A DNA stretch of 64,000 nucleotides. Source: Pseudomonas capeferrum (lineage in GTDB: Bacteria; Pseudomonadota; Gammaproteobacteria; Pseudomonadales; Pseudomonadaceae). The stretch covers positions 1,611,526 to 1,675,525 of the forward strand of contig NZ_JMIT01000001.1 of the NCBI RefSeq assembly GCF_000731675.1, in the 5' to 3' direction. Each line of letters begins with the position of its first letter. Positions within the stretch are counted from its first letter, which is position 1. The notes under the pieces are model-generated. The model was not told where the DNA came from and ran no database searches. It worked only from the letters and a program-made list of their open reading frames with translations. Below are positions 4,450 through 55,512 of the stretch, one piece after another. A program made the position numbers and the translations under genes.

Positions 4450-5505
4450 ATGACCGTGCTCGCCCGTGCTGCTTCGCTGACCAATTACCTGGAAGTCTCC
4501 CGCCATCTGGGCCTCAATGGCCATGGGCTGCTGGCCCAGGCTGGCCTCAGCGCTTCATTGCTCGAAGCCCCCGACCAGCGCATTCCAGTCGCTGCTGCCA
4601 TCAACGTGCTCGAAGAGTCGGCGCGCCTGAGCGGCTGCGAAGCCTTCGGCCTGCGCATGGCCGAACTGCGCCAGTTGTCGGATTTTGGTGAAGTCAGCCT
4701 GCTGATCAGCCACCAGCATTCGCTGCGCGATGCGCTGCAGGTGATCGTGCAATATCGCCATGTGCTCAACAATGCCCTGGCGATTCACGTCGAAGAAACC
4801 GGCAAGACGGTGATCATTCGCCAGGAAGTCATCACCGAGCAGCCCATGCACAGCCGCCAGGCCATCGAGCTGGCCATTGGTGTCATGCACCGCTTCTGCT
4901 CGGCGTTGCTGGGCGCGCACTGGCACCCGGTCAGCGCCAATTTCACTCACGCTGCCCCCGCCGACCTGGCCATCCACCGCCGCATCTTCGGCTGCAAGCT
5001 GGAGTTCAACAGCGACTTCAATGGCATCGTCTGTTCCGCCGCCGACCTGGACACGACCAACCCACAGGCCAACGAAGCCATGGCGCGGCTGGCCCAACGC
5101 TACGTGTGTGCCCTGCAGGATGACGGCAACCCTTCGCTGGTGCACGAGGTGCGCAAATCGATCTTTCTGCTGATGCCGATGGGCCGCGCCACCATCGAGC
5201 ACATCGCCCAGACCCAGGGCATGAACGTGCGCACCTTGCAGCGCCGCCTGGAAGAGGATGGCGCCACCTTCAGCGAGCTGGTCAACAGCGTGCGTCGCGA
5301 CCTGGTGCTGCGCTACCTGGAAAGCCCCGGCTATTCACTGGGGCGTATCGCCGACATGCTTGGCTATTCCATGCACAGTTCATTCACCCGCTGGTTCATC
5401 AACCAGTTCGGCCAGCCACCGGCCACCTGGCGTGTGCAGCATGACCTGCACACGCCGCACAAACGCGCCCGCAGCGCCGCGCAAGGGCCTGTCACCACGC
5501 GTTGA
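4450..5505 (+). CDS. AraC family regulator with Arabinose_bd-type N-domain
   Basis: A 351-residue AraC/XylS regulator. The N-terminal half (LTNYLEVSRHLGLNGHGLL onward) matches the Arabinose_bd domain found in OruR/ArgR-like regulators. The C-terminal part (about residues 245-330) carries two helix-turn-helix units, with MNVRTLQRRLEEDGATF and IADMLGYSMHSSFTRWF visible. The ATG at 4450 is preferred over an upstream start at 4393 because the conserved domain begins right after it. It probably controls the divergent hydrolase-DUF1302-DUF1329 unit and, through the shared 17-bp motif, the qor-TauD-BKACE unit. Confidence 0.88.
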   Translation: MTVLARAASLTNYLEVSRHLGLNGHGLLAQAGLSASLLEAPDQRIPVAAAINVLEESARLSGCEAFGLRMAELRQLSDFGEVSLLISHQHSLRDALQVIVQYRHVLNNALAIHVEETGKTVIIRQEVITEQPMHSRQAIELAIGVMHRFCSALLGAHWHPVSANFTHAAPADLAIHRRIFGCKLEFNSDFNGIVCSAADLDTTNPQANEAMARLAQRYVCALQDDGNPSLVHEVRKSIFLLMPMGRATIEHIAQTQGMNVRTLQRRLEEDGATFSELVNSVRRDLVLRYLESPGYSLGRIADMLGYSMHSSFTRWFINQFGQPPATWRVQHDLHTPHKRARSAAQGPVTTR

Positions 5506-5534
5506 GCGCCTGGTGTAGTGGGAGTTGTGGATGC

Positions 5535-5877
5535 CTGGAGATTGTATTTGGGGCCACCAGGTGCCTGGCTTGGCATTTTCAGCCCTTATCAGATCCAGCG
5601 CCGCCCGCGCGGCGCATCGCGACGCAAGGCCGCTCCTACATCTGTTTCGGGCCAATTATTCCTGAGGCATTTGCGCGCGGCCCCTTGGTGCCCGCCTCAA
5701 TGTTGCGTCGAACAAACAAGGCGGTCGCGCGCTTTTGTCACAGGCATAACTGGCCCGAAACAGATGTAGGAGCGGCCTTGCGTCGCGATGCGCCGCGCGG
5801 GCGGCGCTCGATCTCCGCCCCACCTCCAAAGCGAAGACAGGCACCTAGCCGCCATCATCCTATCTCCCGACAAGCAC
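5535..5877. repeat. nested palindromic element, copy 1
   Basis: This fills most of the 462-bp gap between the araC-type and Rieske genes. Two perfect 57-nt inverted arms (5598-5654 and 5751-5807) carry CGACGCAAGGCCGCTCCTAC and surround a 96-nt asymmetric core. Outside them are shorter terminal repeats (AGGTGCCTGGCTTGG at 5559-5573 against its near-complement ending at 5846) and flanks also found at copy 3. In this copy the core runs GGCCCC...ACAAACAAGG; in copy 3 the same core is reversed while the outer flanks keep their direction. No ORF in it looks real. Confidence 0.85.
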
Positions 5878-5967
5878 CTACCAGCCCCACTTCCCCAACA
5901 TTCCGTGAAGAAACCTAAAAAGCCGAGGGCATCCTGGCCTCCATCGCCTGGGCAAGCGCCAGGCTGT

Positions 5968-6294
5968 TCATGACAGGGTCTCCTGGCAGGCCATCACGAT
6001 GAACACCCGGTCACCCTCCACCTCCACGGGGTAGCTGGCCACCTTGAGCGCCGTGGAATTGAGCAGGTAGCCGCTGGCCAGGTCAAAGCGCAGGCCATGG
6101 GCCCGGCACTGGATCACACCACCGTCCAGCTGGCCGGCGCACAGCGACGACCCTTGGTGCGGGCAGTTGTCGTCAATGGCCAGCAAACGCCCGGCGATAT
6201 TGAACAGCGCCAGGCTTTTGCCTGCATGCTCGAACAACGCGCGCCCGCCGACCGTGGGCACGCGCTGGGCCGGCACCTCGATACGCTGCGTCAT
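5968..6294 (-). CDS. Rieske-type [2Fe-2S] ferredoxin
   Basis: A 108-residue stand-alone Rieske protein. Cluster ligands are Cys44-x-His46 (CPHQG) and Cys63-x2-His66 (CRAH), with the normal 16-residue spacing. There is no signal or membrane anchor, so it is a soluble electron carrier of the kind that feeds oxygenases or NirD-like enzymes. The start is the ATG at 6294, overlapping the stop of the FrnE-like gene by 4 nt (ATGA), which indicates translational coupling. No Rieske oxygenase large subunit lies next to it, so the partner enzyme is unknown. Confidence 0.85.
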   Translation of the reverse strand: MTQRIEVPAQRVPTVGGRALFEHAGKSLALFNIAGRLLAIDDNCPHQGSSLCAGQLDGGVIQCRAHGLRFDLASGYLLNSTALKVASYPVEVEGDRVFIVMACQETLS

Positions 6295-43212: not shown

Positions 43213-43495
43213 CAGAATATCCTTTCTTGTTGTTGTGAAAATGGATAACTCTGTTAACGATTATTTTGATTAACGATGGTGCCGTCAATAGGCGCCAGCG
43301 CATATCACCGCTGCGGCTGCGCGATCAGTGTTCGCTGATCGAACACTTTTGAAACCCCCGATTCAGGGCCGTTGCCTGGCAAAGCCCGTAAAGAAGCGTT
43401 TCAGCCACGGGCGCCTGCGATTTGCTTTCCTTGACAAGATCATTAAATAAAAAAATCATGTGGTGCATTCCACCCACAATAATAAAGAGAACCCC
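43213..43495. promoter_or_regulatory. divergent control region, porin versus sulfatase
   Basis: The 283-bp gap is AT-rich near the porin. Direct repeats of TTAACGAT lie at 43254-43261 and 43270-43277, the first inside GTTAAC. CA-type motifs stand near both starts (43223-43237 minus strand, AATAATAA at 43478-43485 plus strand). No other element was recognised. Confidence 0.45.
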
Positions 43496-45160
43496 ATGAC
43501 ACCCTCTAAGCCCTTGCTTGCTTTCGGCCTGCTTCTGCTCGGCGCGAGCCAAGCGTTCGCCGCGCCAACCGTTAAACAACCCAACATTCTGCTGGTGGTC
43601 GCGGATGACCTGGGGTTTTCCGACCTGTCTGCGTTGGGCAGTGAAATCGCTACCCCCCACCTGGACAAGCTGCTGGCGGACGGGCGCCTGATGCTGGACT
43701 TTCACGCCGCACCCAGCTGCTCCCCCACCCGCGCCATGCTGATGTCCGGCAACGACCCGCACCTCTCCGGGGTTGGCATGATGGCCGAGTCGCGCGGGCG
43801 GCTGCCGGCGGGCAGCGAAGTGCAACCGGGGTATGAAGGTGTGCTGGGGGCCAACGTGGCCACGCTCGCCGAGTTGTTGCGCGATGCCGGCTACCGCACC
43901 TACATCGCCGGCAAATGGCACCTGGGCATGACCCCGGCGCAGCAGCCGCAGAACCGCGGTTTCGACCAGGCTTATGTACTGCTCGAAGGGGGGGCGGCGC
44001 ACTTCAAGCAAACCAACATGGGCCTGCTGCCTAACTACAGCTGGACCTTCCGCCACAACGGCGAGCCGGTGGAGCTGCCTAACGATTTCTACTCGACCCG
44101 CTGGTTCACCGACCGCCTGATCGACGCCATCGACCAGGGCAAGGCCAGCCACAAGCCGTTCTTCGCCTTTGCCGCCTACACCGCACCGCACTGGCCGCTG
44201 CAGGCACCCGACGCGTACCTGGCGCAATACCGCGGCCGCTATGACCAAGGCTATGAGCAGATTGCCCGCGAACGGCTTGAGCGCCAGCGCAAGGCGGGGT
44301 TGGTGCCCGCCGACTTCCCGATTGAGCCGCAACTGGAAGGCGTGCCGGCCTGGGCGTCGCTGAGCCCTGAGCAACAGCAGCAGTCAGCCCGCACCATGGA
44401 GGTTTACGCAGCCATGGTAGCGGCGCTGGACGCCGAGGTCGGACGCTTGGTGGAGCATCTGCGGGCCACGGGCGAACTCGACAACACCCTGGTGTTGTTC
44501 ATGTCCGACAATGGCCCGGAAAATGCCAACCGTGTAGACCCGGCGTGGATCAAAAGCAACTTCGACAACCGCCTGGAAAACTACGGCCGGCCCGATTCTT
44601 TCCTGATGATCGGCTCGGCCTGGGCCCAGGTCAGCGCCCTGCCCAGCCGCCGCTACAAGATGACCACCTACCAGGGCGGAATTCGCGTACCGGCCTTCGT
44701 CCACTACCCGGCGACGATAAAACCCGGGCGCAGCGAAGCGCTCGCCAGCGTCCGCGACATCATGCCGACCTTGCTGCAACTGGCCGGTGCGTCCTTGCCA
44801 GGCATCAAGTACCGCGACCGCGATATCGTGCCCCCCCAAGGCACATCAGCTTTGGCTTACCTCGAAGGCAAGGACACCCAGATCCACCCCCGCGACGAGG
44901 CCCTGGGCTGGGAAATCAACGGGAATGCCTCCTTGCGCAAGGGCGACCTCAAGCTGTTGTTCGATACCACCGACGCAGCGCCGGCCTGGCGTTTGTTCGA
45001 TTTGAGCAAGGACCCAGGCGAACGCCATGACCTGGCCCCGCAACAGCCCATGCAAGTGGCCGAACTGCTGCGCGACTGGAAAAGCTACGCCCAGCGCAAC
45101 AACATCGTGACCACGGCCGAGGGGCGGCCTGTTTCCCCCGCGTTGGTCCGCAAGCCATGA
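43496..45160 (+). CDS. type I arylsulfatase, exported
   Basis: A 554-residue sulfatase. The modification motif is CSPTR at 75-79, whose Cys75 is turned into formylglycine. Metal-binding Asp37 and Asp38 (VVADDLG), GKWHLG and FMSDNGPE are present. It has a Sec signal peptide (MTPSKPLLAFGLLLLGASQA, cut after AFA) and so acts in the periplasm. The ATG at 43496 is preferred over one at 43460 because it sits directly at the signal peptide. The stop overlaps the start of a formylglycine-generating enzyme. Aryl or choline sulfate esters are possible substrates. Confidence 0.92.
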   Translation: MTPSKPLLAFGLLLLGASQAFAAPTVKQPNILLVVADDLGFSDLSALGSEIATPHLDKLLADGRLMLDFHAAPSCSPTRAMLMSGNDPHLSGVGMMAESRGRLPAGSEVQPGYEGVLGANVATLAELLRDAGYRTYIAGKWHLGMTPAQQPQNRGFDQAYVLLEGGAAHFKQTNMGLLPNYSWTFRHNGEPVELPNDFYSTRWFTDRLIDAIDQGKASHKPFFAFAAYTAPHWPLQAPDAYLAQYRGRYDQGYEQIARERLERQRKAGLVPADFPIEPQLEGVPAWASLSPEQQQQSARTMEVYAAMVAALDAEVGRLVEHLRATGELDNTLVLFMSDNGPENANRVDPAWIKSNFDNRLENYGRPDSFLMIGSAWAQVSALPSRRYKMTTYQGGIRVPAFVHYPATIKPGRSEALASVRDIMPTLLQLAGASLPGIKYRDRDIVPPQGTSALAYLEGKDTQIHPRDEALGWEINGNASLRKGDLKLLFDTTDAAPAWRLFDLSKDPGERHDLAPQQPMQVAELLRDWKSYAQRNNIVTTAEGRPVSPALVRKP

Positions 45161-46194
45161 CCCCCCGGAGGCTCGGGGGTGTGGTACTCGCCCTCGGCGT
45201 GCTTGCCGCCGCGTATGCCGCCTGGCCGGTGCCCCCTGCACCGGCGCTGCTATGCAGCAGTTACAGCGGCGTGCCAGAGCCCCACCAGGGGCCTTGGCGA
45301 GACGGTATGGTCCGCGTTGCCGGGGGCACGTTCAGCTTCGGCTCAGACCGCTTCTACAGCGAAGAACGCCCGCCGCACCGGGCCAAGGTCTCGGCCTTCT
45401 GGGTCGACGTGCACCCGGTCACCAATGCCCAGTTCGCCCGCTTCGTACAGGCCACCGGCTACGTGACCCAGGCCGAACAGGGCATCGACGCACAGGCCGC
45501 CCCCGACCTGCCAGACCCGCTGCGGGTGCCAGGCGCAATGGTGTTCAAGCAAGGCGCGCAGGTGTTGCGGCCCGGCTGGCAATTCGTTGCCGGGGCGAAC
45601 TGGCGCCACCCCCTGGGGCCCGGCAGCCACTGGCACGATCGGGCCAACCACCCGGTGGTGCAGGTGACCCTGCGCGATGCCCAGGCCTACGCCCGCTGGG
45701 CCGGGCGCACACTGCCCAGCGAGGCGCAGCTGGAATACGCGATGCGCGGTGGCCTGCAGGATGCGGACTTCAGTTGGGGCACGGCTGAGCGGCCCAACGG
45801 CAACCCCATGGCCAATACCTGGCAGGGCCAGTTCCCGTATCACAATCAAGCGCTCGACGGTTTCACCGGCACCTCCCCGGTGGGCTGCTTCGTGGCCAAT
45901 GGCTTTGGCCTGTTCGACGCGGGCGGCAACGTCTGGGAGCTGACGCGCAGCGGCTATCGCCCCGGGCATGATGAGGCACGCGACGCCGCCCTCGACCCCA
46001 CGGGCCCGGCGCTGGGCGACAGCTACGACCCCGTACAACCCGGTACGCCGGTGGTGGTGATCAAGGGGGGTTCACACCTGTGCTCGGCGGATGCCTGCAT
46101 GCGCTACCGGCCTTCGGCACGGCAGCCGCAGACGGTGTACCTGGCAACGTCTCATGTGGGGTTTCGGACGGTGCGGGCAGCTGCGGCCGACTGA
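45157..46194 (+). CDS. formylglycine-generating enzyme (SUMF1), exported or anchored
   Basis: A 345-residue FGE-sulfatase domain protein. GGTFSFGS near residue 58, HPVTNAQFARFV, and FDAGGNVWELTRSGY are characteristic, and both copper-binding cysteines are present (Cys309 and Cys314, C-SADA-C) near the end. The N-terminus (LGGVVLALGVLAAAYAAW) is a signal or membrane anchor, so it works on the outside of the inner membrane. The start overlaps the sulfatase stop (ATGA). It should activate the upstream sulfatase. Its last 134 bp overlap the MocR gene on the other strand. Confidence 0.9.
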   Translation: MTPRRLGGVVLALGVLAAAYAAWPVPPAPALLCSSYSGVPEPHQGPWRDGMVRVAGGTFSFGSDRFYSEERPPHRAKVSAFWVDVHPVTNAQFARFVQATGYVTQAEQGIDAQAAPDLPDPLRVPGAMVFKQGAQVLRPGWQFVAGANWRHPLGPGSHWHDRANHPVVQVTLRDAQAYARWAGRTLPSEAQLEYAMRGGLQDADFSWGTAERPNGNPMANTWQGQFPYHNQALDGFTGTSPVGCFVANGFGLFDAGGNVWELTRSGYRPGHDEARDAALDPTGPALGDSYDPVQPGTPVVVIKGGSHLCSADACMRYRPSARQPQTVYLATSHVGFRTVRAAAAD

Positions 46195-47683
46195 GGCTGC
46201 CCAGGTCGCTTGCCGCCTGTGCCAGCCGCTGGGTCGCACGGCGGATCTCGTCCACATCGAGCGAGGCGAAGCCCAGGCGCAAGGCATTTTCGCGGTGGCC
46301 GAACGGTGAAAACTGGCCGCCGCCGCGCAGCACCAGGTCCAGCTGCAACGCTTTGGCCGCCAACTGGTCGACATCGATCGCATCGTCGAACGTCACCCAC
46401 AGTGCCAACCCGCCTTCCGGTGCCTGCACCGCTATCTGCTCGCCAAAGGCATCGCGCAGGCAACTCAACAAGGTCTCCCGACGCCGACGGTACTCGCTGG
46501 ACACCCGCCGCAGGTGCTTTTTCAGCTCGCCGTCATTGATCAGGTCCGCCAGCATCCGTTGCATGACCGCATCCCCCTGCCCCAAGGTCAGCACCGCGGT
46601 ACGCTCAAGCACCTCGATCACATTCGGCGGCGCCACGATAAAGCTGCAACGAAAGGTGCTGCCCAACGACTTGGACAGCGAACCGATGTAGATCACATGG
46701 CGCTGCGAAGGGTCGCTGGCCAGCGGCAAGTAGGGGCGTCCGGCAAAGTGATACTCGTGGTCGTAATCTTCTTCGATCACGCAAAAATCATGCAGCCTGG
46801 CCAGCTCCAGCAATTGCTGCCTGCGTGCGGCATGCAGGCTGACCGTGGTCGGGAACTGGTGATGCGGGGTGAGGTACATCATGCGAACGTCGTGTGCCCG
46901 GCACAACGCGTCGACCTGATCGACCCGGCAACCCTCCTCGTCCAGGTCGACGGTAACCAGCCGCGCCCCCAACTGGCGGAATATCTCCCACGCCGGCGGG
47001 TAGCTCAGGCGCTCGACCAGCACCACATCACCCGGCTTGAGCAATGCGCTGGCCGTCAGGTACAGCGACATCTGCACGCCTTGGGTCAGGCAGATGTGTT
47101 CTGCTCCCACGTTCAGGCTGCGGTTATGGCGCAGCATGTCGGCCAATGCGCTGCGCAGGTATTGGCTGCTGCCCTCGCAGCCATGGCGCACGGTGTTGGT
47201 GGTGAAACTGGTGCGCAAGGCCTTGCGGTAATAGCGATGCAACACAGCCTGGGGCAGCAGGCGATGGTCACAGGCGCCGTTATCGAAAAACAGCGCGCCC
47301 GGCCGATGGTGCAGCGTCGTCACCTGCTCGCTGTGGGTGAAATACGCCACCGCTGGCGCGTCGTTCAGCGCCAGGGCGAAGGTCGGCGGCGCGCCGCGCG
47401 CAGGCAGCGTGCCCGCGGCGAGCCGGGTACTGACGAAGGTGCCCCGGCGCTGCACGCTCTCCAGCCAGCCTTTGGTGACCGCCTCTTCGTAGGCGAGGAT
47501 CACCGTCTTGCGATTGACGTCAAGCAGTTGCGCCATCTCCCGCGTGCCGGGCAACAGTGTGCCGGGGCGCAGGCGGCCCTCGACGATGGCGGTCACCAGG
47601 CCTTCGACGATCTTGCGGTACGAGGCCTGCGGCTGAGCCCCATCGAGCTTGAGCAGCGGCCGCCATTTGCGAAGCTGGACCAT
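46061..47683 (-). CDS. MocR/PdxR-type regulator with aminotransferase domain
   Basis: A 540-residue MocR protein. The winged helix (YRKIVEGLVTAIVEGRL, MAQLLDVNRKTVILAYEEA) is followed by an aminotransferase fold with the PLP lysine in YIGSLSKSLGSTF. The C-terminal tail beyond the domain (about 45 residues, rich in Pro and Ser) is encoded antisense to the end of the FGE gene and looks non-conserved. It is divergent from the ferredoxin reductase-M24 fusion gene, which is the likely target, through 90 bp with an AGAAC-N5-GTTCT repeat. Confidence 0.9.
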   Translation of the reverse strand: MVQLRKWRPLLKLDGAQPQASYRKIVEGLVTAIVEGRLRPGTLLPGTREMAQLLDVNRKTVILAYEEAVTKGWLESVQRRGTFVSTRLAAGTLPARGAPPTFALALNDAPAVAYFTHSEQVTTLHHRPGALFFDNGACDHRLLPQAVLHRYYRKALRTSFTTNTVRHGCEGSSQYLRSALADMLRHNRSLNVGAEHICLTQGVQMSLYLTASALLKPGDVVLVERLSYPPAWEIFRQLGARLVTVDLDEEGCRVDQVDALCRAHDVRMMYLTPHHQFPTTVSLHAARRQQLLELARLHDFCVIEEDYDHEYHFAGRPYLPLASDPSQRHVIYIGSLSKSLGSTFRCSFIVAPPNVIEVLERTAVLTLGQGDAVMQRMLADLINDGELKKHLRRVSSEYRRRRETLLSCLRDAFGEQIAVQAPEGGLALWVTFDDAIDVDQLAAKALQLDLVLRGGGQFSPFGHRENALRLGFASLDVDEIRRATQRLAQAASDLGSLSRPQLPAPSETPHETLPGTPSAAAVPKAGSACRHPPSTGVNPP

Positions 47684-47694
47684 GTGAATTATCC

Positions 47695-47709
47695 AGAACT
47701 GGAGGTTCT
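47695..47709. promoter_or_regulatory. AGAAC-N5-GTTCT repeat in the MocR/fusion gap
   Basis: A perfect inverted repeat (AGAACTGGAGGTTCT) lies 12 nt upstream of the MocR start and 65 nt upstream of the fusion-gene start. It is a candidate operator for the MocR protein. Confidence 0.4.
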
Positions 47710-47773
47710 TGTGGTCCTAGTCTAAACGCAACAATCAGGCCTCTCCAGCCCACCCTTGCGCCCTGAGGTCTGT

Positions 47774-49474
47774 ATGCACGATCGCCATGTCATTGAACTC
47801 TCGCCCTCGGGCAAGCGCTTCGAAGCCGCCGAAGGCTTGCTGCTCGATGCAATGCTCGCCAGCGGCCTGTCCGTGCCCTTCTCGTGCCGCCGCGGCGCCT
47901 GTGGGTCGTGCAAGGTCAAGGTGGTGGCGGGCCAGTATCGGGCCAAACAACGCAGCGACGACACGCCCGCGCCCTGCTACCCCCTCGCCGCCAACGAGAT
48001 GCTGCTGTGCCAGAGCCATGCCTGCAGCGACATGCGCCTGGAAATACCCGGCTGGTCAGTGGACACGCCGACCCTGCAGATCAGCGCCCATGTGCTGAGC
48101 AAACGCGCCCTGAGCGTGGACATCACCGAACTGGTGCTGCAACCCACGCAGCCCCTCGAGGTACGCGCCGGCCAGTACCTGAGGTTTTGCCTGGCCAACG
48201 GCGACAGCCGCTGTTTCTCCATCGCCAACCTGCCAGCGCAGGACCAAGGGCGGTTGGTGTTTCATATTCGTACCCTCAGCGGCGGGCTGTTCACCGCAGG
48301 CACCCTGCCGTCCCTGCAGGTGGGCGACGCGCTGCAGCTCGCAGGGCCCGTGGGCGCCTGCACCTGGCAACACGAAGGTGAACGCCCCGTGGTGTTGTTC
48401 GCCACCGGCACCGGCTATGCCGGCATCAAGCCGTTGTTGCTGACGGCCCTGTCTGGCACTGCCCAGGTCACGTTGTATTGGGGCGGTTCAGCGCAGGCCG
48501 ACTTCTATGACAGCGCGTTTCTCGACCAGGCCAGCCAGGCCCATCCACGGTTTCGCTGGCACCGGGTGCTGTCGGCACAAGCCCGCGTGCAACAGGTTGC
48601 GCTGACGCACGCTCACCCGTGGGCCGACACCCAGGTCTATGCCTGCGGCAACCCTGCGATGATCAGCCAGGCCCGCGCGCTGTGCCTTGCAGCGGGCGTG
48701 CAGGCACACCGTTTTGTCGCCGAGGCGTTTGTGCCCAGCGGCGCATCGGTACCGGCGGCCGCGATGCTCGACACGCTGGACCCGGTACTGGAAAAAGTCG
48801 GCCCGCGCTACTCGCTGGACGGCATGCTCGCCGCCCGCGAGCAGTCGGTGCGGGCCCTGGCGGCCATCGCCAGCCAGCTGAAAGTCGGCATGACCACCGC
48901 CGAGGCGTTGCACATGGCAGGCCAGACGTTGCAGGCAATGGGCGCGTCGCACACCTGGCACCCGACCTATATCCGCTTTGGCGACGACACCATCCGCACA
49001 CCGCGCCAGGGCATCGACCTGCAGCGCCGGCTGCGTGCCACCGACATCGCCGTGGTCGACCTCGGCCCGGTGTGGGATGGTTATGAAGGCGACTATGGCG
49101 ACACCTTCGTGTTCGGCGAGCACCCGCTGTATCAGGCCTGCGTCACCGCCCTGCACGAGGTGTTCGAAGAGACGCGCCAAGCCTGGTGCGACGGGCTGAC
49201 CGGCCGTGAACTGTACGACGTCGCCGAGCGCAGCGCCCTGGCCAAAGGCTGGCAGCTGGAGCGCAACCTGGCCGGGCACCGCATCGCCGACTTCCCCCAT
49301 GCGCTGTTCGGCCAGGACAAACTGGCCGACCTGGACATCGTACCGAGCGAGATGGTCTGGGTACTGGAGATTCAGCTGTGCCACCCCACGGAGCCGGTCG
49401 GGGCGTTTTTCGAAGACATTCTGGTTGGGCAAGCCAGGCCGGCCAAATCTGTGGTGCTTCAGAAACACCAATGA
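47774..49474 (+). CDS. fusion: [2Fe-2S] ferredoxin reductase and M24 metallopeptidase-like domain
   Basis: A 566-residue three-part protein. Residues 1-90 are a plant-type ferredoxin (Cys38, Cys43, Cys46, Cys79; CRRGACGSC). Residues 95-315 are an FAD/NAD(P)H reductase (RCFSIAN 146-152, ATGTGYAGIKP 210-220, YACGNP 289-294). Residues 330-566 match an M24 (pita-bread) fold, and all five metal ligands appear in order: Asp429, Asp440, His502, Glu532, Glu547. The ATG at 47774 follows GAGG; an upstream TTG would add six residues. No stop or frameshift divides the parts. The reaction is unknown; M24 members include creatinase-type C-N hydrolases as well as peptidases. Confidence 0.85.
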   Translation: MHDRHVIELSPSGKRFEAAEGLLLDAMLASGLSVPFSCRRGACGSCKVKVVAGQYRAKQRSDDTPAPCYPLAANEMLLCQSHACSDMRLEIPGWSVDTPTLQISAHVLSKRALSVDITELVLQPTQPLEVRAGQYLRFCLANGDSRCFSIANLPAQDQGRLVFHIRTLSGGLFTAGTLPSLQVGDALQLAGPVGACTWQHEGERPVVLFATGTGYAGIKPLLLTALSGTAQVTLYWGGSAQADFYDSAFLDQASQAHPRFRWHRVLSAQARVQQVALTHAHPWADTQVYACGNPAMISQARALCLAAGVQAHRFVAEAFVPSGASVPAAAMLDTLDPVLEKVGPRYSLDGMLAAREQSVRALAAIASQLKVGMTTAEALHMAGQTLQAMGASHTWHPTYIRFGDDTIRTPRQGIDLQRRLRATDIAVVDLGPVWDGYEGDYGDTFVFGEHPLYQACVTALHEVFEETRQAWCDGLTGRELYDVAERSALAKGWQLERNLAGHRIADFPHALFGQDKLADLDIVPSEMVWVLEIQLCHPTEPVGAFFEDILVGQARPAKSVVLQKHQ

Positions 49475-49844: not shown

Positions 49845-50615
49845 CTACCCCTGGGCCGAGAACAACGCGAACAGCTGGCTGCGAAAGTGGATGCCTAGCC
49901 GGTCGAACGCCCGGTTACGGTAAGTCTTCACGGTACTTTCCTTGATGCCCAGGTCGGCGGCGATGCCGGCATGGGTCATGCCCTGTAGCAGGCGGGCACA
50001 GATGTTCAACTCTTGCGTGGTGAGCTCGGGGCAGCGCTGCAGCAACTGCTGCTGAGGGTTCTTGACCGGGTTCAGGCTGTTCAGCGCCAGGTGCCCGCGC
50101 AACAGCTGCAGCAGCGCCGGGCTGAGCGCTTCGCACATCTGCAATTCCTGGTCGTTGAAAAAACCCTGATCGTGGTGCCGGTAGAGGTTGAACTGCACTG
50201 GGCGCGCCTGTTCGTCCAGGTACACGCTGGACAACCGTTCGATCATGCCATTGCGCTGGTAGATCGCCTCGCGGTATGGCCCATGGCGGATGTCCTGGGC
50301 CAGCAGGTGGCCGACCTGCCCGGGGGCCTCCTTCAACGGCTCGAACAAGGGGTCATAACGATGGTAGTGCTCGATGTACGCCTGGCCGCAGCGCAGCACC
50401 AGGCTGGCGTCAGGGTGGCGGGTGCCGGCCGCCAGCAGCTGCGGCCGCGCGCCGTCCATGCGCAACACGGAAAAATGCTCGCAGGCCGCCCACTGGCCCA
50501 GGCAGTCCAGCAACGCAGCGGGAAAGCCAGGCGTGCCCAACGTGCGGGTCAGGTCGCTGAAAGCGCGAATTTGCGCGGGCAAGGTCGATGCCTGTGGGGT
50601 GCTGAGACGAATCAT
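49845..50615 (-). CDS. LuxR family transcriptional regulator
   Basis: A 256-residue protein with a sensor-like N-terminal part (CEHFSVLRMDGARPQLL, YHRYDPLFEPL) and a LuxR helix-turn-helix at about 190-250 (LTTQELNICARLLQGMTHAG, IAADLGIKESTVKTY). The ATG at 50615 is used because the longer frame upstream covers the divergent promoter. It is divergent from the oxygenase operon and probably controls it through the 20-bp palindrome between them. CCAATAACAATAAA (50631-50644, minus strand) is a Crc/Hfq-like motif. Confidence 0.87.
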   Translation of the reverse strand: MIRLSTPQASTLPAQIRAFSDLTRTLGTPGFPAALLDCLGQWAACEHFSVLRMDGARPQLLAAGTRHPDASLVLRCGQAYIEHYHRYDPLFEPLKEAPGQVGHLLAQDIRHGPYREAIYQRNGMIERLSSVYLDEQARPVQFNLYRHHDQGFFNDQELQMCEALSPALLQLLRGHLALNSLNPVKNPQQQLLQRCPELTTQELNICARLLQGMTHAGIAADLGIKESTVKTYRNRAFDRLGIHFRSQLFALFSAQG

Positions 50616-50667
50616 GGCGGCACTCGGATATTTATTGTTATTGGCTCGGGCGAACAGCGCCCGATAA

Positions 50668-50687
50668 ATAGTTAACCTATTAACTAT
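50668..50687. promoter_or_regulatory. 20-bp palindrome between LuxR gene and oxygenase operon
   Basis: ATAGTTAACCTATTAACTAT is a perfect 8-4-8 inverted repeat in the 175-bp divergent gap. It is a strong candidate operator for the LuxR protein, and shares GTTAA/TTAAC words with the site before ech. Confidence 0.6.
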
Positions 50688-50790
50688 CAGTCTGCCGCCA
50701 ATCCACGACCTTGTCCACCTCACGGGTGACAGCCCTGGCAAACGCGCGTCCGTAAGCTGGCCCCGACAACGACAATGATCGGGAACACCC

Positions 50791-51741
50791 ATGAACCAGC
50801 ACCCACTGAACCTGCGCGTCACGCGCTACGCCGCAGAAGCCAAGGACGTGGCACTGATCGAGCTGCGTGCAGACGATGGCCGGGCACTGCCGCCCTTCAG
50901 CGCGGGTGCCCACCTGGAAATCCTCGTCGCAGGCGACCTGCCGCGCCACTACTCACTGCTCAACGCGCCCGATGAACACGACCGCTACCTGATCGGCGTG
51001 GGCCTGGCACCTGATAGCCGCGGCGGCTCGCGTTTCATGCATCAGCAACTGCGCCTGGGCGACACCCTCGCCTGCAGCCTGCCGCGCAACCACTTCGGGC
51101 TGGACGAGCACCTGCAACGCTATTGCCTAGTGGCGGGCGGCATCGGCATCACGCCGATACTGGCGATGCTGCGCTGGTGCCAGGCGCACGACAAGGACTG
51201 GCGATTGGTGTACAGCGCCCGCAACCGGCAACGCGCCGCGTTCTACGAAACCCTGCGCGCACTGGACCCTGCCCGGGTGCAACTGCACTTCGACGACGAA
51301 GCGGGCGGCCATCTGGATACCGCGCAACTGCTCGACACCCTGCGCGATGGCGAGCACCTGTACGCCTGCGGGCCAGCGCCGATGCTCGACGCCTTGCAAG
51401 CCGCTGCCGGGCCACGCGCCGAACGCCTGCACATCGAACGCTTCAGCGCCGCACCGGCCAGCACCGAGGGCGACAGTGGCTTCACCGTGCACCTGAACCT
51501 CAGCGACCGCAGCATCTGGGTCGCCCCCCAACAAAGCATCCTCGAAGCCCTAGAGGCCCACGGCATCGAGCTGCCGTTTTCATGCCGGGCCGGCATCTGC
51601 GGCAGTTGCCAGACCCGCGTCTGCGCAGGCGTGCCAGACCACCGCGACCTGATCCTCTCGGATGCCGACAAGGCCGCAGGCCAGAGCCTGATGATCTGCG
51701 TCTCGCGTGCCCTGGGCGACAGCCTGGTGCTGGACCTCTGA
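50791..51741 (+). CDS. VanB-type oxygenase reductase
   Basis: A 316-residue reductase of the phthalate dioxygenase reductase family: flavin motif RHYSLLNAP, NAD part VAGGIGITPIL and YACGPAPML, and a C-terminal plant-type [2Fe-2S] domain (CRAGICGSC and a fourth Cys in MICVSR). It transfers electrons from NADH to the Rieske oxygenase encoded 31 nt downstream. VanB is the closest familiar example. Whether the pair acts on vanillate is not certain. Confidence 0.88.
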   Translation: MNQHPLNLRVTRYAAEAKDVALIELRADDGRALPPFSAGAHLEILVAGDLPRHYSLLNAPDEHDRYLIGVGLAPDSRGGSRFMHQQLRLGDTLACSLPRNHFGLDEHLQRYCLVAGGIGITPILAMLRWCQAHDKDWRLVYSARNRQRAAFYETLRALDPARVQLHFDDEAGGHLDTAQLLDTLRDGEHLYACGPAPMLDALQAAAGPRAERLHIERFSAAPASTEGDSGFTVHLNLSDRSIWVAPQQSILEALEAHGIELPFSCRAGICGSCQTRVCAGVPDHRDLILSDADKAAGQSLMICVSRALGDSLVLDL

Positions 51742-51772
51742 ACCGCCTCACCCTTTTTCAAGGAGCATCCCC

Positions 51773-52882
51773 ATGTCACTGCCCACCAGCAACCTGATTG
51801 CGCATGCCCGCAAAGCCAGCGAACCGATGGCCAACCGCGAGACCCCGTTCATCTACAATGAGTGGTATGTCGCCGCCTTTGACGATGAAGTCGGCCGGCA
51901 CTTGCTGGCCCGGCGCCTGCTCGACCGCCGCGTGGTGATGTACCGCACAGAGGCAGGCGAGCCGATCGCCCTGGAAGACCGCTGCGCGCACCGCTCGTTC
52001 CCGCTCTCGCGCAGCCATCTGCAAGGCGACACCATCGTCTGTGGCTACCACGGCTTCCGCTACGACGCCGCCGGCGACCTGACCGAGGTGCCGTCACAGA
52101 AAAACTGCCCACGTGGTATTGGCGTACGCCGGTACCCGCTGGTGCGCCAAGGGCCGTTACTGTGGATCTGGCTGGGCGAGGAGGCCCTCGCCGACGCGGC
52201 GCAGATCCCCCATCAGGCATGGATCGACGACCCGGCCTGGGCCTGCACCTCCGGGTATTTCCATCACCCGGGCAACTACGTCAGCCTGCATGAAAACCTC
52301 ATGGACCTGACCCACCTGAGCTTCCTGCATGCCAACACCATCGGCACCCCGGACTACGCCAGCGCGCCCTACAAGCTGGACCTCAAGGAAGGCCATTACA
52401 CCCTGATCCGCGAAGTGGTGCCGACCACCCTGTCGCCAGTGTGGGGCAAGACCACAGGGCTGGAAGGCTGCCCCAGCGCGGCACGCATTGCCACGTCGGA
52501 GTTTCTTTCGCCGGGGCTGCACCGGGTCAGCGTGACCTTCTACGACAGCGCCCAGCCGCTGGAGCAGCGCCAGCAGTTCCACATCCGCACCGCGCATATC
52601 CTGACCCCGGAAACCGCCAACAGCCTGCACTACTTCATCGTCCATGGGCGCGACTTCGCCCAGCACGACGAAGCCCTGGGCGAGTACATGCACGAGCAGC
52701 TGTTCGCCGCCTTCAACGAAGACGTGGAAGGCCTCGGTGCACTGGAGGCCGCGCTCGACGACCGCGACGACCATCACTACGAAATATCCGTGGCCAGCGA
52801 CGCCCCTGCCGTCGCCACCCGCCTCTACCTGAAGAAACGCGCCGATGCCGAGCGCCAGCACGACAGCCGCAAGGTCGGCTGA
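51773..52882 (+). CDS. VanA-type Rieske oxygenase
   Basis: A 369-residue aromatic-ring or O-demethylating oxygenase. Rieske ligands are Cys71, His73, Cys90 and His93 (CAHRS, CGYHG). The non-heme iron site is HENLMDLTHLSFLHAN with His181 and His186; Asp178 links the centres. The ATG at 51773 follows AAGGAG. It resembles VanA and DdmC-type demethylases, but the N-terminus and many segments differ from canonical VanA, so another methoxy- or side-chain-bearing aromatic acid may be the substrate. Confidence 0.88.
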   Translation: MSLPTSNLIAHARKASEPMANRETPFIYNEWYVAAFDDEVGRHLLARRLLDRRVVMYRTEAGEPIALEDRCAHRSFPLSRSHLQGDTIVCGYHGFRYDAAGDLTEVPSQKNCPRGIGVRRYPLVRQGPLLWIWLGEEALADAAQIPHQAWIDDPAWACTSGYFHHPGNYVSLHENLMDLTHLSFLHANTIGTPDYASAPYKLDLKEGHYTLIREVVPTTLSPVWGKTTGLEGCPSAARIATSEFLSPGLHRVSVTFYDSAQPLEQRQQFHIRTAHILTPETANSLHYFIVHGRDFAQHDEALGEYMHEQLFAAFNEDVEGLGALEAALDDRDDHHYEISVASDAPAVATRLYLKKRADAERQHDSRKVG

Positions 52883-52903
52883 AGGCAGCGCTGGCCGCCG
52901 TCC

Positions 52904-52918
52904 ATAACAACAATAAAA
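52904..52918 (+). promoter_or_regulatory. Crc/Hfq-type CA motif before the OprD gene
   Basis: ATAACAACAATAAAA lies 10 nt before the ATG at 52929 and contains AACAACAA. It overlaps the ribosome-binding region (AAAAGGGA). Confidence 0.5.
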
Positions 52919-52928
52919 GGGACATCAC

Positions 52929-54179
52929 ATGTTCAAGCCTGAACCGGCTATCACCTGCCTGCGCCTGGCGCTGGTGGCAGCGCTGGCCTTGCCACTGCCC
53001 GCCCGCGCCGACTTCATCGGCGACAGCCAGGGCAGCCTGGAGCTGCGCAACTTCTACCAGAACCGCGATTATCGCCAGCACGGGGCCCAGGCTTCCCAGG
53101 TCGGCAACTGGTCGCAAGCCTTCATGCTGCGAATGCAATCGGGCTTCACCGAAGGGCCGGTCGGCGTTGGCCTGGACTACCTGGGCCTGCTGGGGGTCAA
53201 GCTCGACTCGGGGCGCGGCCGCAGCGGGGACGGCACGCTGCCCTTCGGTTCGCAGTCAGGCCGGCCGGTGGACGACTTCAGCCACATGGGTGTCACCGGC
53301 AAGCTGCGGGTGTCGAAGACCCGCCTTGATGTCGGCATCCTCACCCCGACGCTGCCCGTGGTCTTTCGCGATGACATGCGCCTGATGCCCCAGACGTTCG
53401 ATGGCGCGCTGCTGCAATCGCAGGACGTCGAGCGGCTGACCCTGACCGCCGGGCAGCTCTGGCGCTCGCGCACCCGTGAGTCGTCGGGCAGCGACCGCAT
53501 GTACCTGGCCGGGCGCAGCGCCGCGTTCGACAGCGGCGCCTTCGATGTGCTGGGCGCCAGTTATGACGTGGGCCACGGCTTGATCGCCAGTGCCTTTCGC
53601 GGCGAGCTGCATGACGTGTACCGGCAAGACTTCTACGGCCTGGTGCACACGCTGCCATTAGGGCCGGGGTTGTCGCTGCTCACCGACCTGCGTTACTTCG
53701 ACAGCACCAGCGCCGGCACTGCCAAGGCCGGCAGCGTCGACAACCGCAACTTCAACATGATGAGCACCCTCAGCGTGGGTGCGCACAAGGTCGGCGTGGG
53801 CTACCAGCGCATGTACGGCAACGATGCCTTCCCCACCCTGAACGGCTACACCCCGCCCTACACCGCCAACTTGGTCACGATCGGCACCTTCACCAGCGCT
53901 GGCGAAGTGTCGTGGCAAGCCCGCTATGACTACAACTTCGCCGCCCTCGGGCTACCCGGGCTGAGCTTCATGACCCGCTACGTGCGCGGCGACGACATCC
54001 GCACCCGCGCGGCCGACGGCCATGAGTGGGAACGCGACACAGACCTCGCCTACGTCATCCAGGCCGGCTACTTCCAAGGGCTGGGCGTGCGTTGGCGCAA
54101 CGCGGCCTATCGCTCCAGCTACGCCAGCGACATGGACGAGAACCGGCTGATCCTCAGCTACACCCTGAAACTCTGGTGA
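52929..54179 (+). CDS. OprD family porin
   Basis: A 416-residue outer-membrane porin with a signal peptide (cut after ARA near residue 27) and the OprD start ADFIGDSQGSLELRNFY. The C-terminal strand ends in LKLW. Segments such as GVTGKLRVSKTRLDVG and SFMTRYVRGDDIRT are typical. It follows the oxygenase gene by 46 nt and likely takes up the aromatic acid. Confidence 0.92.
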   Translation: MFKPEPAITCLRLALVAALALPLPARADFIGDSQGSLELRNFYQNRDYRQHGAQASQVGNWSQAFMLRMQSGFTEGPVGVGLDYLGLLGVKLDSGRGRSGDGTLPFGSQSGRPVDDFSHMGVTGKLRVSKTRLDVGILTPTLPVVFRDDMRLMPQTFDGALLQSQDVERLTLTAGQLWRSRTRESSGSDRMYLAGRSAAFDSGAFDVLGASYDVGHGLIASAFRGELHDVYRQDFYGLVHTLPLGPGLSLLTDLRYFDSTSAGTAKAGSVDNRNFNMMSTLSVGAHKVGVGYQRMYGNDAFPTLNGYTPPYTANLVTIGTFTSAGEVSWQARYDYNFAALGLPGLSFMTRYVRGDDIRTRAADGHEWERDTDLAYVIQAGYFQGLGVRWRNAAYRSSYASDMDENRLILSYTLKLW

Positions 54180-54210
54180 CCCCCTTACACCTGCCCTTCG
54201 AGGTAACCCC

Positions 54211-55512
54211 ATGAGCCAGACCTTCGAGTCTCTGCAACACGCGCAGAGCACTGCCAATACCCACCGCCAGATCAGTTGGCGGATCATGCCGCTGCTGCTG
54301 ATCAGCTACGTTTTCGCCCACCTGGACCGCATCAACATCGGCTTCGCCAAGCTGCAGATGAGCAACGACCTGCAGTTCTCCGACACCGTCTACGGCCTGG
54401 GTGCCGGGCTGTTCTTCGTCGCCTACGCGATGTTCGGCGTGCCGGCAAACCTGGTGCTCGACAAGCTCGGCCCACGGCGCTGGATCGCCCTGATGATGGT
54501 GACCTGGGGGCTGCTCTCCAGCGCCATGCTGCTGATTGAAAGCGCCCACGGCTTCTATGCCCTGCGTTTCGGCCTGGGGGTGGCCGAGGCCGGTTTCTTC
54601 CCGGGCATTCTGGTCTACCTCTACCGCTGGTTCCCGGCCGGGCGCCGGGCCTCGATCACCGCCCTGTTCACCCTGGCAGTCCCCATGGCCGGCGTGGTCG
54701 GCGGCCCGGTATCGGGCTGGATCCTCGAACACATGCAAGACACCGCCGGGCTGCGCGGGTGGCAGTGGATGTTTCTGATCGAAGGCCTGCCGGTCGTGGC
54801 CTTGGGCCTGGTGATACTGGCGCGGCTGGACGACCGCATCGAAGACGCACGCTGGCTCAGCGACGAACAGAAGCACGCCCTGCGCCAGACGCTGGCCCGT
54901 GAAGAAGCACGCAAACAGATCAGTTCCTGGCGCGGGATCTTTGCCAATGGCCAGGTCTGGCTGCTGGTGGCGATCTATTTCGCGGTCATGCTGGCGGTCA
55001 ACACCCTGGCGTTCTGGATGCCGACCCTGATCCACGGCGCGGGCGTTGCCCACGACAGCCAGATCGGCCTGCTCAGTGCACTGCCCTATCTGGCCGGGTG
55101 TTTCTTCATGATTGCCGTGGGGCGTTCTTCCGACCACCACAAAGAGCGGCGCTGGCACCTGTGCGTGCCGATTCTGATGTGCGCGGTGGGGTTGACCCTG
55201 ACCGGCCTGCAGCCGCAGTCACCGCTGTGGGTGATGACAGGCCTGGCCATTGCCGGCATGGGTGCCAGCAGTGCGTTGCCGATGTTCTGGCAATTGCCTC
55301 CGGCCTACCTGGCCGGGCCGATACTGGCGCCTGGGTTGGCCCTGATCAGCTCGCTGGGCAGCGTGGCGGCGTTTGTCGCGCCTTACCTGATCGGCTGGAT
55401 GCGCGACAACACTCAAAGCGCCAGCCTGGCGCTCTACTTGTTGTCGTTGGTGATCGCCTTGGGCGCCTTGCTGGTGCTGCGCACCTCGGCTGCGGTGGTC
55501 AACCCACGCTGA
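54211..55512 (+). CDS. MFS transporter, anion:cation symporter (ACS) family
   Basis: A 433-residue MFS carrier with the ACS signature in the first helices (SYVFAHLDRINIGFAKLQM) and DKLGPRRWIALMM. Family members import phthalate, glucarate, tartrate and other acids. It ends the LuxR-regulated operon (reductase, oxygenase, OprD, MFS), completing outer- and inner-membrane uptake for the same substrate. Confidence 0.9.
   Translation: MSQTFESLQHAQSTANTHRQISWRIMPLLLISYVFAHLDRINIGFAKLQMSNDLQFSDTVYGLGAGLFFVAYAMFGVPANLVLDKLGPRRWIALMMVTWGLLSSAMLLIESAHGFYALRFGLGVAEAGFFPGILVYLYRWFPAGRRASITALFTLAVPMAGVVGGPVSGWILEHMQDTAGLRGWQWMFLIEGLPVVALGLVILARLDDRIEDARWLSDEQKHALRQTLAREEARKQISSWRGIFANGQVWLLVAIYFAVMLAVNTLAFWMPTLIHGAGVAHDSQIGLLSALPYLAGCFFMIAVGRSSDHHKERRWHLCVPILMCAVGLTLTGLQPQSPLWVMTGLAIAGMGASSALPMFWQLPPAYLAGPILAPGLALISSLGSVAAFVAPYLIGWMRDNTQSASLALYLLSLVIALGALLVLRTSAAVVNPR

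Follow-up and report, generated by a model that had tools for sequence, protein, structure and literature searches.

What chemistry is carried out by a protein that joins an NAD(P)H-dependent [2Fe-2S]/FAD reductase to a metal-hydrolase fold in a single chain? The question is raised by a gene in a 64,000-nt stretch of DNA from the soil bacterium Pseudomonas capeferrum (hereafter, the window). The gene is a single ATG-started open reading frame of 566 amino acids, in which the domains Fer2, FAD_binding_6, NAD_binding_1 and Peptidase_M24 follow one another, each above its Pfam gathering score. This bears out the original prediction of a four-cysteine [2Fe-2S] domain, an FAD/NAD(P)H reductase and an M24 domain in one frame. 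The source genome has one copy, with the following layout.

47774–49474, + strand: fusion gene, 566 amino acids, Fer2–FAD–NAD(P)–M24 (open reading frame and Pfam)
47798–48022, + strand: [2Fe-2S] domain (Fer2), residues 9–83, with Cys 38, 43, 46 and 79 (Pfam)
48092–48364, + strand: FAD-binding domain (FAD_binding_6), residues 107–197 (Pfam; R146 and S149 invariant)
48398–48676, + strand: NAD(P)-binding domain (NAD_binding_1), residues 209–301, with GTG at 212–214 and CG at 291–292 (Pfam and alignment)
48743–48811, + strand: linker, residues 324–346 (pLDDT below 50 in the full-length model)
48821–49426, + strand: M24 domain (Peptidase_M24), residues 350–551 (Pfam), with ligands D429, D440, H502, E532 and E547, invariant W395-H396 and E438, and P410 at the place of the prolidase catalytic His

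The N-terminal half has the make-up of an oxygenase-type Fer2–FAD–NAD reductase: FAD and NAD domains are present together with the four cluster cysteines (C38, C43, C46 and C79), which are invariant in all 47 rows of an alignment (A1) that also keeps R146 and S149 of the FAD domain. The C-terminal half belongs to the M24 superfamily by its pita-bread fold and its five metal ligands; these had been named in the prediction, and every one of the 78 fused rows keeps all five unchanged. The full-length structure model (pTM 0.55) leaves the domain arrangement open. No characterised enzyme of this architecture was found in Pfam, NCBIfam, the PDB or a literature search that covered few subscription papers or preprints, in agreement with the earlier view that the make-up lacks a characterised match.

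Distribution of the fusion

Scanning named genomes turned up 79 related loci, 77 of which encode the whole architecture in one open reading frame of 549–584 amino acids. The exceptions, a short frame of 452 amino acids in Variovorax (L115) and a locus with only an M24 piece (L114), were left out of the 78-row fused alignment. Within the genus Pseudomonas, 38 of 298 sampled genomes match the fusion at E ≤ 1e-60. Because of these two counts, two genes joined by a sequencing error, or by a chance fusion, can be excluded as the origin of the frame; the prospect that the architecture might be missing from all related genomes did not materialize. Both the architecture and its conservation are direct observations.

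The hosts fall in Pseudomonas (one record is titled Pantoea) and in Burkholderiales, with Variovorax, Achromobacter, Herbaspirillum, Roseateles, Comamonas and Paraburkholderia. The Burkholderiales fusions L100, L111 and L256 have the same Pfam domain order, the FAD domain of L256 scoring 20.6 bits, slightly below the Pfam cut-off of 21.1. Spread by plasmids was considered and rejected: only 6 of 72,556 plasmid records match, and those with the M24 part alone. Gene calls in the loci come from a simple script, which leaves start sites and small genes uncertain. The M24 piece of L114 (8001–8477) is a second, partial copy, 84% identical over residues 386–544, in Pseudomonas sp. K2I15, which also carries a full fusion (L039).

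Reductase half and possible electron acceptors

The closest relatives of the reductase half are oxygenase reductases, namely GcoB (5ogx), T4moF, BenC and a carbazole dioxygenase reductase, with 5ogx the best PDB match by both sequence and fold. The fusion shares with BenC, T4moF and GcoB the order of Fer2, FAD and NAD domains and the intact motifs, but it lies far under the NCBIfam equivalog cut-offs (for BenC, NF040810, 114 against 430 bits) and has a C-terminal M24 domain.

Oxygenase-type reductases have no substrate of their own. With three query proteins, a Rieske or P450 relative was present in the flanks of 2 of the 78 fusions and in none of the other 76 (flanks of up to 8 kb, some shorter), which leaves the M24 domain as the only visible electron acceptor. 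Because the reductase is substrate-less, the chain has one other metal site and oxygenase neighbours accompany so few fusions, the M24 site is the most likely destination of the electrons.

The original prediction had pictured a C–N or N-methyl bond being oxidised and hydrolysed in one complex. In a related scheme, the reductase would feed an oxygenase from another locus, whose product the M24 domain would cleave, for example at a C–N or amide bond. Single cases in which an M24 gene lies beside a P450 or Rieske gene (L135; L154) would suit this scheme; the 76 flanks argue against it, as do the genes tested beside two unfused reductase–M24 pairs described below (L279 and L280), among which there was no oxygenase relative.

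In the window, a VanA-type Rieske gene with its own reductase lies 2.3 kb downstream of the fusion, within a separate catabolic cluster at 49845–55512 (LuxR-type regulator, reductase, VanA-type Rieske oxygenase, porin-like gene and MFS transporter). On the other side, 43460–46194 holds a sulfatase gene that is followed, with an overlap, by a member of the sulfatase-modifying (FGE) family; upstream of the pair, a gene like those of outer-membrane porins lies on the opposite strand. An earlier suggestion that the sulfatase and the Rieske oxygenase are partner genes had to be given up: neither the sulfatase pair nor the Rieske, reductase and MFS genes are kept beside the fusion in related loci, and these neighbours were rejected as pathway partners.

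A remodelled M24 active site

Modelled alone, the M24 domain reaches a pLDDT of 92.5 and a pTM of 0.88, and a fold search with this model places prolidase 1wy2 (Z 21.8, r.m.s.d. 3.1, 211 aligned) and methionine aminopeptidase 1xnz (Z 21.2) in a tie at the top. The domain shares the pita-bread fold and all five ligands with the M24 peptidases (prolidase, aminopeptidase P and methionine aminopeptidase). It differs from them in its replaced catalytic His, in W395-H396 and E438, which do not match the aligned peptidase residues, and in being fused or linked to a reductase.

A profile alignment places the prolidase catalytic His at column 410, where, in the sequence alignment, none of the 133 fused and standalone rows has His (the set leaves out L114, L115, L143, L144, L145, L148 and L149). 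Fused rows have Pro (52), Ser (13), Ala (12), Trp (1) or Val (1) at this column, and standalone rows have Phe (46), Met (4), Tyr (3) or Ala (1); His occurs at the next column, 411, in one fused and one standalone row. The peptidase His is lost, and the redox and metal motifs are intact. W395, H396 and E438 are invariant in all 133 rows. In an alignment to 1pv9, a pocket Phe is the counterpart of H396, and E438 faces an Asn that precedes one of the ligands by two residues. All 79 fused rows have Asp at position 405, as against Asn in 51 of the 54 standalone ones.

Readings of the domain as a creatinase, a methionine aminopeptidase or a plain peptidase are weakened because the catalytic His is replaced, and with them the creatinase analogy drawn in the original prediction. 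The methionine aminopeptidase model TIGR00500 gives 27.8 bits against a cut-off of 171.35, and Pfam shows in the fusion no N-terminal creatinase domain, which marks creatinase and ectoine hydrolase. The replaced His also tells against hydrolysis of another oxygenase's product by the M24 domain.

A remodelled pocket, in which Trp-His stands in for the pocket Phe of prolidase, would suit an enzyme of the same architecture that passes electrons straight to a substrate held there, such as an N-oxide or hydroxylamine, with no part for O2. As neither neighbours nor relatives give any pointer to a reducible substrate, we regard this as improbable.

Split pairs and standalone relatives

Most standalone M24 relatives have 37–46% identity. 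They were matched in 52 of 199 genomes of Pseudomonas (E ≤ 1e-65) and, in one Burkholderiales family, in 38 of 200 genomes, L256 among these 38 being a fusion; the list of fusions and that of standalone genes share eight Pseudomonas genomes. A class-wide search for standalone M24 in 369 genomes returned only the fusion of the window itself.

A reductase gene lies within 3 kb of the M24 gene in five of 74 loci (L253, L254, L257, L279 and L280), in a set that counts one place twice (L139 and L278), includes L149, where there is no M24 match, and includes L271–L285, over which counts are not a random sample because these loci were chosen as relatives of the L254 M24 or its clade. The split reductases are FAD–NAD–Fer2 proteins with a C-terminal cluster domain, unlike the fusion with its N-terminal Fer2; the L257 reductase (4683–6038), which adjoins M24, is Fer2–FAD–NAD–Fer2, with a [2Fe-2S] domain at each end. 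The pairing persists in spite of these differences. Four of the five split loci have a MocR gene. In L279 and L280 it is divergent from the reductase–M24 pair, in the same order as at the fusion, and those neighbouring genes that were tested are carbohydrate genes; in L253 and L254 it is found beyond M24, which it faces, and is divergent from an amino-acid permease gene.

Fused and split rows share one clade in the M24 trees, with 20 rows at 97/98 in one tree and 26 rows at 93/81 in a second, and all 18 reductase-linked rows of the second tree (13 fused and 5 split) are inside the clade. Support for a reductase-linked clade is good, though in the second tree it falls below the 95 mark. Residue 437 is Tyr or Trp in this clade; in 54 standalone rows it is His (44), Trp (7), Tyr (1), Ala (1) or Gln (1). 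The split pairs firmly tie reductase and M24 to a common role, and recurrence of the pairing in other bacteria, fused or as adjacent genes, suggests an undescribed redox enzyme, probably acting on amines.

Observations on the relatives count against a redox role. Most standalone relatives lack a reductase within 3 kb (68 of the 73 loci where M24 was matched), eight rows of the 26-row clade likewise have none nearby, and the pairing of some standalone M24 genes with GGACT (9 of 74 loci of the wider M24 group) or gamma-glutamyltranspeptidase (2 of 74) looks hydrolytic. Standalone relatives that have no reductase keep all metal ligands, and GGACT, gamma-glutamyltranspeptidase and class I glutamine amidotransferase genes near some of them suggest gamma-glutamyl or amide chemistry, both of which favour an M24 domain that hydrolyses the product of an oxygenase encoded elsewhere. 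Weighed with the missing oxygenase neighbours and the replaced His, this scheme is in our judgement somewhat unlikely, yet nearly as likely as a redox M24 site.

Reductase-less relatives also bear on a third possibility. Fe(II) can occupy M24 sites and is lost on oxidation; the reductase might keep the metals of an otherwise ordinary hydrolase divalent and active. Relatives with no reductase are common, in keeping with this idea. A dedicated reductase with three cofactors would however be a costly repair device, and most relatives manage with none, which makes it a remote prospect.

The GGACT genes (gamma-glutamyl cyclotransferase-like) lie within 3 kb of standalone M24 in L137, L140, L141, L154, L230, L232, L235, L283 and L285, from Pseudomonas, Novosphingobium and one Burkholderiales family. 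A MocR gene is found beside M24 with no reductase in L248, L249 and L255; in L248 and L249 it is divergent from M24, and a gamma-glutamyltranspeptidase gene lies downstream. In 5 of 60 loci (L222, L225, L226, L227 and L234) a LysR gene of the PtrR (putrescine utilisation) type is directly upstream of standalone M24, the family being scored for L222 only. These GGACT, gamma-glutamyltranspeptidase and PtrR neighbours hint loosely at amine or gamma-glutamyl compounds, and mostly belong to M24 relatives outside the reductase-linked clade. L241 (5027–6673) has a LysR regulator and M24 in a single open frame, a candidate fusion or a lost stop.

A conserved divergent MocR regulator

The gene next to the fusion and the region between them are laid out as follows.

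46061–47683, − strand: MocR-type regulator (GntR plus aminotransferase class I/II fold), divergent from the fusion (Pfam, NCBIfam)
47684–47773, no strand: intergenic region shared by MocR and the fusion, with operator-like repeats (56 aligned Pseudomonas loci)
47675–47683: operator-like repeat CTGGACCAT, overlapping the MocR start
47699–47707: operator-like repeat CTGGAGGTT
47712–47718: inverted TGGTCCT, operator-like

The regulator has the GntR and aminotransferase domains of the MocR/GabR type, with K338, presumably the PLP lysine, in an SLSKS motif, and scores 322.5 against NCBIfam PdxR (cut-off 320). Its 540-residue product compares with about 495 residues in many relatives, the C-terminus looking extended, and its gene shares 134 bases (46061–46194) with the 3′ end of the FGE-like gene.

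The predicted link between a divergent MocR protein and the fusion is kept in 75 of 78 fused loci; of the other three, two are on contigs that stop within 470 bases upstream, and L111 has no such gene. Burkholderiales MocR proteins are only 26–32% identical to that of the window, and the pairing is therefore old. Other genes beside the fusion vary among lineages, so the unit is regulator plus enzyme.

The alignment of 56 Pseudomonas loci shows CTGGAC.../CTGGAGG and an inverted TGGTCC conserved in the intergenic region; because the first repeat runs into the MocR start codon, its conservation is partly coding. By eye, a comparable set (AGTGGCTT / AATGGC.CTA / GCCATTCTA) can be made out in most of the listed Burkholderiales loci. 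These repeats are putative MocR operators.

MocR/GabR inducers require a primary amino group (PMC5924519). With the conserved MocR link, this makes the amine or amino-acid ligand of the original prediction reasonable.

The ectoine hydrolase EutD (DoeA) is an M24 protein, and the fusion gives no sequence sign of the ectoine set. As here, a MocR-type regulator (EnuR) is encoded beside the hydrolase gene eutD/doeA; no reductase is named there, the word 'ferredoxin' being absent from the text (PMC5924519).

Proposed mechanism and implications

Taken together, we propose, with a probability of about 0.4, that the fusion is a MocR-controlled, self-contained redox enzyme in which the M24 dimetal site is driven by the reductase and most likely activates O2 for attack on an amine-derived small molecule. 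NAD(P)H would reduce the FAD of the N-terminal half, the reduced FAD would pass electrons to the [2Fe-2S] cluster, and the cluster would deliver them singly to the dimetal site, where the metal may be iron. That site, having lost the peptidase His, would act as a reductase-driven metal centre that most likely activates O2, and the activated O2 would oxidise the amine-derived compound. MocR would sense the amine, or a product bearing a primary amine, through PLP and control the fusion gene. Redox chemistry of this kind at the M24 site fits at least as well as oxidation and hydrolysis in one complex.

M24 enzymes are known as hydrolases and also as lyases. More tentatively, the fusion may represent a new O2-activating class in Pseudomonas and Burkholderiales: M24 (pita-bread) dimetal oxygenases that act in an amine pathway under MocR control and draw on a [2Fe-2S]/FAD reductase fused to them or encoded next door. 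In the amidohydrolase-related family PF04909, dinuclear monooxygenases were recognised through their reductase neighbours (PMC10811679). There, AibH1H2 and SfbO offer a precedent for a metallohydrolase family turned dinuclear monooxygenase; they differ from the fusion in their family, in an unfused reductase and in demonstrated chemistry (PMC10811679). The self-contained fusion lends itself to a direct test of this idea, for which a single purified protein, NADH, O2 and a range of amines would be enough. If it is true, a dedicated electron supply to an M24 site that has lost its His and kept its ligands would mark a redox branch of the fold, parallel to that found for amidohydrolase-related proteins.
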